DNA of 64,000 bases from Burkholderiales bacterium (lineage in GTDB: Bacteria > Pseudomonadota > Gammaproteobacteria > Burkholderiales > Burkholderiaceae_C): contig JAIXTA010000110.1 of the NCBI GenBank assembly GCA_027484405.1, forward strand, positions 1 to 64,000, given 5' to 3'. Both the position numbers and the translations under genes were made by a program. Positions 23,268 to 25,691 of the stretch are shown in pieces. Within the stretch, counting starts at the first letter, position 1; the number at the start of each line of letters is the position of its first letter. Below the pieces are notes generated by a model, which was given only the letters and a program-made list of their open reading frames with translations, ran no database searches and was not told the origin of the DNA.

Positions 23268-23297
23268 TTGCGCAGCGCAGCAATCGCCTGATACATT
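23268..23297 (+). promoter_or_regulatory. Candidate promoter of the aromatic attenuator/DAHP synthase transcript
   Basis: TTGCGC (23268-23273) - 18 nt - TACATT (23292-23297) with extended -10 TGA immediately before; predicted +1 at about 23304. Confidence 0.4.
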
Positions 23298-23303
23298 CCA
23301 GAC

Positions 23304-23366
23304 ATGCTTCATCGCGCGTACTTCTTTTTCTGGTTTTATCTCTGCCGCCCGGCGGTGAGAGGCTGA
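23304..23366 (+). CDS. Aromatic-rich leader peptide MLHRAYFFFWFYLCRPAVRG*
   Basis: ATG CTT CAT CGC GCG TAC TTC TTT TTC TGG TTT TAT CTC TGC CGC CCG GCG GTG AGA GGC TGA; 7 consecutive aromatic codons but not in the ORF track because of its size; followed by attenuator hairpins and DAHP synthase genes. Confidence 0.85.
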   Translation: MLHRAYFFFWFYLCRPAVRG

Positions 23367-23426
23367 CGCGCGAACAAGCGACGAAGAATCTCAGAAACCG
23401 CCGGGCACAACCCGGCGGTTTTTTTT
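23348..23426 (+). promoter_or_regulatory. Transcription attenuator: competing antiterminator and terminator
   Basis: Segment 2 CCCGGCGGTGAGA (23348-23360) can pair with segment 3 TCTCA-gaaa-CCGCCGGG (23389-23405); segment 3 alternatively pairs with segment 4 CCCGGCGG (23411-23418), followed by 8 T. Confidence 0.85.
23395..23426 (+). terminator. Intrinsic terminator of the attenuator
   Basis: AAACCGCCGGG-CACAA-CCCGGCGGTTT with T run to 23426, 84 nt upstream of the first DAHP synthase ATG. Confidence 0.93.
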
Positions 23427-23510: not shown

Positions 23511-24590
23511 ATGAGTACCCGTACCGACGATATTCGCGTCACCGCGATCCGAGAGCTGACGCCTCCCGCCCATCTGCTGCGCGAGTTTCCGCTTGCCGAC
23601 AGCGCTGCCGATACCGTGGCCGCGGCACGGCGCGCCATCCACAGAATCCTGCATGGGCAGGATGACCGCATGCTTGTGGTGATCGGGCCCTGCTCGATTC
23701 ATGACCCCGCAGCGGCACGCGACTATGCACAGTGCCTGATGCATGAACGCAAGCGCCTCGCGCTCGATCTCGAAATCGTGATGCGTGTCTACTTCGAGAA
23801 GCCGCGGACCACAGTAGGCTGGAAGGGGCTGATCAATGACCCGGCGCTCGACGGCAGCTTCGACGTGAACCGCGGCCTTCGTCTGGCGCGGGAGCTTCTG
23901 GTCGACGTGAACGCACTTGGCATGCCGGCCGGTACCGAGTTCCTGGACCCGATCAGCCCGCAGTACTACAGCGATCTCATCGCCTGGGGCGCGATTGGTG
24001 CACGCACCACTGAGAGCCAGGTTCATCGCGAGCTGGCCAGCGGCATGAGCTGCGCCCTGGGCTTCAAGAACGGCACGGACGGAAATCTCAAGATCGCGGC
24101 TGACGCCATCAAGGCGGCCCAGCATCCGCACTGCTTTCTCGGTGTGACCAAGGGCGGTATCTCTGCAATTGTGCAGACTGCCGGCAACGAGGATTGCCAC
24201 GTGATTCTGCGTGGCGGAAAGACCCCCAACTACGACGCAGCCAGTGTGGAGGGGGCATCCCAGGCGCTGGCCCAGGCAGGCCTGGCGCAAAAGCTCATGA
24301 TCGACTGCAGCCACGGCAATTCAAGCAAGCAGCACGAGAACCAGCTCAAGGTGGCACAGGTCATCGCTGATCAACTTGCCGCAGGCGACATGCGCATCAT
24401 GGGTGCCATGGTGGAGAGCCACCTTGTTGCCGGCCGGCAGGACCTGCTCGCCGGTCAGCGGCTGGCTGATCTCACCTATGGCCAGTCGATCACTGACGCA
24501 TGCCTGGGCTGGGAGACATCCGTACAGGCGCTTGACTGTCTGGCGCTTGGGGTGCGCGAGCGCCGGCGGGCCCTTGCATCAGCCAAATAG
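23511..24590 (+). CDS. 3-deoxy-7-phosphoheptulonate synthase, class I (AroF/G/H family), copy 1
   Basis: VVIGPCSIHDP, RVYFEKPRTTVGWKGLINDP, GARTTESQVHRELASG, GFKNGTDGN, DCSHGNSSKQHENQ. Confidence 0.97.
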   Translation: MSTRTDDIRVTAIRELTPPAHLLREFPLADSAADTVAAARRAIHRILHGQDDRMLVVIGPCSIHDPAAARDYAQCLMHERKRLALDLEIVMRVYFEKPRTTVGWKGLINDPALDGSFDVNRGLRLARELLVDVNALGMPAGTEFLDPISPQYYSDLIAWGAIGARTTESQVHRELASGMSCALGFKNGTDGNLKIAADAIKAAQHPHCFLGVTKGGISAIVQTAGNEDCHVILRGGKTPNYDAASVEGASQALAQAGLAQKLMIDCSHGNSSKQHENQLKVAQVIADQLAAGDMRIMGAMVESHLVAGRQDLLAGQRLADLTYGQSITDACLGWETSVQALDCLALGVRERRRALASAK

Positions 24591-24620: not shown

Positions 24621-25691
24621 ATGCCATTCCAGACCGATGACGTCCGCATTGCGGGCATTCACGAACTGAGTCCGCCCTCGCACCTCATTCGCGAGTTTCC
24701 TTGCGCCGATCGCGCTGCCGAGGTCGTGGCGACCTCACGCCACGCAATTCACCGCATCCTGCACGGACAGGACGACCGACTTGTCGTGGTGATTGGTCCC
24801 TGCTCGATTCACGACCCCAAGGCCGCCATCGAGTATGCGAGCCGTCTGATCGAGGAGCGGCGCAAGCATGCAGCCGATCTCGAGATCGTGATGCGTGTGT
24901 ACTTCGAGAAGCCGCGGACCACCGTGGGCTGGAAGGGTTTGATCAACGATCCTGATCTCGATGGCAGCTTCCAGATCAACAAGGGGCTGCGGGCGGCACG
25001 CGAGCTGCTCGTGAACATCACGGAGTTGGGTCTGCCGGCGGCGACCGAGTATCTCGACATGATCAGTCCGCAGTACATCGCCGACCTGATCGCCTGGGGA
25101 GCGATCGGCGCACGCACTACGGAGAGCCAGGTGCATCGCGAGCTCGCCAGCGGGTTGTCCTGCCCGGTCGGCTTCAAGAACGGCACAGACGGCAACGTCA
25201 GGATCGCGGTCGATGCCATCAAGGCGGCACAGCATCCGCATCACTTCCTTTCGGTGACCAAGGGCGGTCACAGCGCGATTGTGGCCACGCGCGGCAACGA
25301 GGACTGCCATGTGATCCTGCGCGGCGGCAAGGCACCCAACTACGACGCCGCCCACGTGCAGGCCGCATGCGAGGACATCGGCAAGGCCGGACTGGCCCAG
25401 CGCCTGATGATCGATTGCAGCCATGCGAACTCCAGCAAGAAGCACGAGAACCAGCTGCTGGTGGCGTCCGACGTGGCGCAGCAGCTGGCACGTGGAGAAA
25501 CCAGGATCATCGGCCTGATGGTCGAAAGTCACCTCCAGCCCGGGCGGCAGGACCTCGTTCCCGGCCAGTCGCTGAACTACGGGCAATCCATCACGGACGC
25601 CTGTCTGGGCTGGGATGACTCGGTGAACCTGTTGGCCACGCTTGCGGCGGGCGTGCGCGAGCGTCGCCGGGCACTCGCGTCGGTCAAGTAG
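24621..25691 (+). CDS. aroG: 3-deoxy-7-phosphoheptulonate synthase, class I (AroG-like), copy 2
   Basis: Same motifs as copy 1; 30-nt intergenic gap; AroG-like stretch GSFQINKGLRAARELLVNITELGLPAATEYLDMISPQY. Confidence 0.96.
   Translation: MPFQTDDVRIAGIHELSPPSHLIREFPCADRAAEVVATSRHAIHRILHGQDDRLVVVIGPCSIHDPKAAIEYASRLIEERRKHAADLEIVMRVYFEKPRTTVGWKGLINDPDLDGSFQINKGLRAARELLVNITELGLPAATEYLDMISPQYIADLIAWGAIGARTTESQVHRELASGLSCPVGFKNGTDGNVRIAVDAIKAAQHPHHFLSVTKGGHSAIVATRGNEDCHVILRGGKAPNYDAAHVQAACEDIGKAGLAQRLMIDCSHANSSKKHENQLLVASDVAQQLARGETRIIGLMVESHLQPGRQDLVPGQSLNYGQSITDACLGWDDSVNLLATLAAGVRERRRALASVK

Follow-up and report, generated by a model that had tools for sequence, protein, structure and literature searches.

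What controls transcription into the two tandem DAHP synthase genes of this bacterium? The question has some weight, since the synthesis of every aromatic amino acid passes through DAHP synthase, and the repression of the E. coli DAHP synthases by TyrR/TrpR is the textbook case of control at this step. The window, by which we mean the whole 64,000-nt stretch analysed (positions 1–64,000 of contig JAIXTA010000110.1 of a Burkholderiales bacterium), carries on its forward strand a first type I DAHP synthase gene of the AroF/G/H family at 23511–24590 (TIGR00034, 524.6 bits, far over the cut-off; E = 2e-141 against PDB AroG) and, 30 nt 3' of it, a second one at 24621–25691 (AroG equivalog NF006723, 591 bits against a cut-off of 568; E = 6e-150 against PDB AroG). 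In alignments of the two enzymes with PDB AroG we saw no reliable residue that would discriminate their feedback specificities. These are the only DAHP synthases found in the 3.7-Mb, 94%-complete genome: the third PF00793 match (L213) reads as KdsA, with an enolase-like ORF after it, and class II DAHP synthase gave no match. Nor did TrpR or the TyrR-type HTH give any match in this 94%-complete genome, with E. coli scored as a positive control, which fits RNA control standing in for repression in this organism.

The preliminary description of this DNA placed before these genes a leader ORF with a run of aromatic codons, three competing RNA segments (2, 3 and 4) and a tract of eight T residues, and the coordinates of all of them proved exact when verified on the sequence. 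The ORF (MLHRAYFFFWFYLCRPAVRG*, 23304–23366, forward strand) has 20 codons between an ATG at 23304–23306 and a TGA at 23364–23366, and its codons 6–12 (23319–23339; TAC TTC TTT TTC TGG TTT TAT) read Tyr-Phe-Phe-Phe-Trp-Phe-Tyr. It is the sole ORF with such an aromatic run on either strand of the window. Among 3000 dinucleotide shuffles of the intergenic region, none contained a short ORF with seven or more consecutive aromatic codons and one contained a short ORF with five or more. Segment 2 (GCCCGGCGGTGAGA, 23347–23360), the 5' arm of the antiterminator, lies inside the leader ORF 3' of the control codons and contains a copy of segment 4. Segment 3 (TCTCA-GAAA-CCGCCGGGC, 23389–23406) is common to the antiterminator and the terminator, while segment 4 (CCCGGCGG, 23411–23418) and T8 (23419–23426) constitute the 3' arm and the U-tract of an intrinsic terminator placed behind the leader ORF and ahead of the first DAHP synthase gene, all on the forward strand. 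Since segments 2 and 4 are both complementary to segment 3, the 2:3 antiterminator and the 3:4 terminator are mutually exclusive. Codons for the end products of a pathway clustered in a short ORF, an antiterminator arm within that ORF, a terminator behind it and a position before the gene that makes the sensed amino acids are what characterises an attenuator, and each of them is found here.

The complementarity of segments 2 and 3 exceeds chance (p = 0.0005, shuffle test), and the leader stretch as a whole has a fold z-score of −3.36, with 1 of 200 shuffles equally stable. Beyond the features of the preliminary description we predict a protector or pause hairpin of the classical kind, formed by segments 1 and 2 (ATCTCTGCCGCCCGGCGGTGAGAGG, 23338–23362, forward strand), which lies within the MFE fold. 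It is represented in the covariance alignment by two aligned pairs only, which carry no compensatory change; in 96 of 121 homologues, the window included, segment 2 is predicted to pair, at above 0.5, with sequence upstream of it or next to it. The predicted stem energies in the window are −11.6 kcal/mol for 1:2, −36.7 for 2:3 and −21.7 for 3:4. At equilibrium the antiterminator is thus more stable than both of the other hairpins, so that the outcome rests on kinetics. A further pairing proposed earlier, a long-range one between 23312–23319 and 23366–23373 that would enclose the aromatic codons, did not hold up: in the window it is present but marginal (p = 0.06), the same-genus relative has lost part of it, and it reaches p < 0.05 in 7.5% of 120 homologues, which is near chance and no excess. 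A general terminator scan flagged nothing at the leader because the stem runs into the T-tract.

No Shine-Dalgarno sequence precedes the leader ATG in the window, and an SD-like sequence was seen in just 7 of 125 homologues, so translation of the leader must be leaderless or SD-independent. A likely promoter at 23268–23297 of the forward strand, also absent from the preliminary description, bears on this point. It consists of a −35 element TTGCGC (23268–23273), a spacer of 18 nt before the −10 hexamer and an extended −10, TG-A-TACATT (TGATACATT, 23289–23297); a simple consensus promoter scan did not flag it because it is of the extended −10 type. The promoter block CTTGCGCAG-GCAGCAATCGCCTGATACATTCCA is nearly identical in the same-genus relative, whereas the intergenic sequence adjoining it on the upstream side has diverged. 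Of 125 homologues, 49 have TGNTANNNT beginning between −25 and −9 relative to the leader start, most often at −17 to −15; the shuffles gave 1.5. The Burkholderia types have TATAAA farther upstream in place of an extended −10 near the leader start. From the position of the extended −10, the transcript of the window should start at about 23304, at or beside the leader ATG, and the leader would then be a leaderless mRNA.

On these grounds we infer the following course of events, of which translation of the leader is suggested by codon conservation. Transcription would start at or beside the ATG, and a ribosome would translate the 20-codon peptide behind RNA polymerase. A shortage of any one of charged Phe-, Tyr- and Trp-tRNA would stall the ribosome in codons 6–12, where it would unwind segment 1 and free segment 2, which would pair with segment 3 once the latter emerges; the terminator could not then form and the two DAHP synthase genes would be transcribed. 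When all three tRNAs are charged, a ribosome at the UGA would cover segment 2, or its release would let 1:2 re-form, and with segment 2 occupied segments 3 and 4 would pair and transcription would end at T8, yielding an RNA of ~120 nt. An equilibrium model of the state with the ribosome at the stop codon did not separate the states, segment 3 being paired around the ribosome, and the geometry of the ribosome footprint was used in its place. With the ribosome at the first aromatic codon, segment 2 is free in all 121 leaders with predicted 2:3 pairing, and with the ribosome at the last one it is free in 79 of the 121. A ribosome at the UGA of the window covers all of segment 2. In about half of the homologues, the Bordetella types included, a ribosome at the more distal stop codon cannot cover segment 2, and once it is released the sequestering of that segment must fall to the 1:2 hairpin.

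The element is widespread among relatives. We collected 164 homologous leaders, 126 of them distinct. All lie 5' of a gene for a type I DAHP synthase, and within the order they represent at least 14 family groups; two more groups lie outside it. When a leader in an aroG locus was called by a short ORF with at least five Phe, Tyr or Trp residues in ten codons followed by a terminator, 62 of the 80 loci with a gene for a relative of the first enzyme had an aromatic leader and terminator before aroG, among them loci of Bordetella, Achromobacter, Burkholderia, Paraburkholderia, Cupriavidus, Massilia and Herminiimonas (leader peptides, for example, MKFASPAFYFYFYGFLKPLAEEGTRSI in Bordetella/Achromobacter, MSAKFYFYFFWYLRPLADREG in Burkholderia and MTSSRFQFYFYFSYSSPTAVEKR in Herminiimonas). 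About a fifth of the 80 aroG loci are without a leader; at the beta-type aroG loci L004, L009, L011, L013, L044, L050, L060, L067, L069 and L079 none was present within 450 nt upstream. An aromatic ORF without matching segments in a member of the Deinococcales (L028) was considered to be a chance occurrence and excluded. Tandem DAHP synthase genes stand behind the same leader in another family as well (f23; L150, L152 and L156); the genus of the window is thus not alone in having them.

A covariance model built from 41 leaders was first run on 25 genomes of the window's own family; each had exactly one match, in every case before aroG. Among 400 sampled genomes of the order, the model matched in 125. 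Sixty further matched places were inspected, and every inspected match with E below about 1e-5 precedes a type I DAHP synthase gene. Weak matches without aroG (E of about 1e-3 to 1e-2) were mostly plain GC-rich terminators and were left uncounted. In 370 genomes of the class there were four further strong matches, all before aroG, in two other families (L215–L218; f61 and f66); the tail of the f61 leader peptide, PKPLAEEGLRSP, closely resembles the Bordetella tail. Deep ancestry or transfer could each account for the occurrence in these two families. In yet another family (f28; L184, L188 and L202, also L210 and L211) the gene that follows an aromatic leader ORF (for example MITFSAVFNAYFYWYRSSRRLQGASLD) and its terminator encodes a hypothetical protein of ~200 aa (MNEVSDARQIARESAS...) and not a DAHP synthase; regulation of that gene by aromatic amino acids is possible.

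Two expectations that follow from the preliminary description, namely that the aromatic codons are conserved in relatives and that the pairing is preserved by compensatory changes, could be followed in this collection. Aromatic codons are kept across many families of the order. The blocks of the 126 distinct leaders contain 849 aromatic codons (548 Phe, 241 Tyr and 60 Trp), and 57 leaders combine Phe, Tyr and Trp, 64 have Phe and Tyr and 5 have Phe only. When codon differences were counted pairwise between similar aromatic blocks, 649 of the single-base differences were synonymous, 157 exchanged one aromatic residue for another and 68 were of other kinds; the aromatic residue is kept in 92% of them, the figures being pairwise counts and not independent events. 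Segments 2, 3 and 4 covary: an A to G change in segment 3 is matched by T to C in segment 4 and, mostly, in segment 2. The terminator stem and the T-run are present in all 41 aligned sequences; 98% of the terminator cells are paired, and two of its pairs show compensatory changes, one in 11 sequences and the other in 6. The antiterminator is 95.5% paired in the alignment. Much of each stem is invariant and hence silent on structure.

Conservation, codon constraint, covariation of segments 2, 3 and 4, placement before DAHP synthase and the geometry of stall and stop all fit ribosome-mediated attenuation, and we consider it very probable, judging from sequence evidence, that the leader region is a transcription attenuator of this kind acting on the first step of aromatic amino acid synthesis. 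Which amino acids it senses is a separate matter. The preliminary description had one leader sensing all three end products of the pathway. This agrees with the window's own family, in which codons for all three occur in the block of 25 of the 26 leaders, and is less generally true of the homologues, only about half of which have Trp. We infer that the leader of the window would respond to each of Phe, Tyr and Trp, and by codon count their relative weight is probably Phe > Tyr > Trp.

The strongest competing interpretation accepts the same attenuation and makes the element effectively a sensor of Phe, or of Phe and Tyr, in which the Trp codon is incidental. The dominance of Phe codons and the 64 leaders with Phe and Tyr but without Trp speak for it, and so does the aroR leader before the DAHP synthase gene aroF of Corynebacterium glutamicum (Neshat et al. 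2014; PMC11802643, PMC4046766): it is described as having control codons Phe-Tyr-Phe and as responding to Phe, the availability of Tyr being without effect (PMC11802643). The near-constant Trp codon of the window's own family argues against this interpretation, as does the retention of Tyr in 121 of the 126 leaders, and we regard it as a real but somewhat doubtful possibility. It is improbable, in our opinion, that cis attenuation is only part of the story and that the peptide or the terminated RNA has a role in trans as well, as Sinorhizobium rnTrpL/peTrpL does; the predicted short leaderless mRNA ending at the terminator is indeed reminiscent of S. meliloti trpL (PMC7298713). Against such a role, the C-terminal part of the peptide varies between families, seemingly as RNA pairing dictates. 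Aromatic-rich nascent chains are able to affect ribosomes, and the choice between the hairpins could in principle be made by TnaC-like stalling of the nascent peptide, or by an RNA-binding protein or a ligand, instead of by tRNA charging. However, the aromatic residues are freely variable in order and number while their presence is kept, a pattern that fits codon sensing better than a specific arrest peptide, and neither the window nor the 20 homologous loci scanned gave a match to an Rfam riboswitch or a T-box, which makes such mechanisms very unlikely. Finally, although tldD has the same orientation and its end lies 83 nt upstream, the idea that the terminator merely serves the 3' end of tldD and that the ORF arose by chance is refuted for practical purposes, since the element stays with aroG at loci where tldD was not found upstream (e.g., L084, L091 and L113) and the aromatic codons and segments 2, 3 and 4 are kept in many families, the run of seven itself having no counterpart in the shuffled sequences.

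Ribosome-mediated attenuation as such is a familiar mechanism. In E. coli, the pheL-pheA and trpL-trpEDCBA attenuators each sense one amino acid at a branch enzyme; they share with the present element a leader peptide, the 1:2, 2:3 and 3:4 logic and a terminator before a biosynthetic gene, but the present element has codons for Phe and Tyr (and often Trp) before the gene of the common entry enzyme. Several amino acids are sensed by one leader in ilvGMEDA (Ile/Val/Leu) and thrL (Thr/Ile), which differ in the amino acids and the pathway concerned. The Rfam models Phe_leader, Trp_leader and His_leader matched nothing in the window at E values of up to 1 and nothing over threshold in 20 homologous loci, and the T-box covariance model matched neither the window nor these 20 loci. 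The leader of S. meliloti trpL is a leaderless leader-peptide mRNA starting from the ATG, before an operon without repression control; a leaderless start is likewise predicted here, but the S. meliloti leader reads Trp only and precedes trpE(G) (PMC7298713). The aroR leader likewise has Phe and Tyr codons, with ribosome-mediated attenuation of a DAHP synthase operon; going by the published description of aroR, on which the comparison is based, that element is actinobacterial and has Phe-Tyr-Phe, whereas ours, from Burkholderiales-type bacteria, usually has five to eight aromatic codons and often all three kinds. In Acholeplasma a motif predicted before aroF, uORFC-13-1, likewise joins a predicted uORF with at least one Phe codon to a promoter and a terminator before a DAHP synthase gene, but it has an RBS and another structure and is known only from Acholeplasma and environmental sequences (PMC8632094). 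The attenuation layout of the preliminary description is borne out, and attenuation by a leader before DAHP synthase has precedents in these two elements.

We found no description of the present element in beta-type proteobacteria in the literature searched, and an earlier listing is possible; the main texts of a comparative study of proteobacterial aromatic regulation (PMC5343134) and of two RNA surveys of Burkholderia cenocepacia (PMC5688073, PMC4603805) showed no mention of it under the terms searched. An aromatic leader before DAHP synthase in Burkholderiales-type bacteria seems to be previously undescribed. What seems new is not the class of mechanism but the long mixed runs of Phe, Tyr and, in part, Trp codons, the wide spread among Burkholderiales-type bacteria and the control of the entry step.

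One may go further and suppose that the leaderless leader acts as an OR-gate for three tRNAs, that it exerts the principal transcriptional control over entry into the pathway in a large set of bacteria lacking TyrR/TrpR and that it replaces there the isozyme-by-isozyme repression of E. coli; we offer this combined proposal tentatively, as one that could well prove too broad. In any case, the element predicts that, unlike in E. coli, an RNA-only logic would operate at the DAHP synthase gate across Burkholderiales-type bacteria, including Burkholderia, Bordetella, Achromobacter, Cupriavidus, Massilia and the family of the window. Leaders that have Trp and leaders that lack it form a natural series in which one may ask how one leader integrates several tRNAs, and the control point may be relevant to the engineering of shikimate flux in Cupriavidus or Paraburkholderia.
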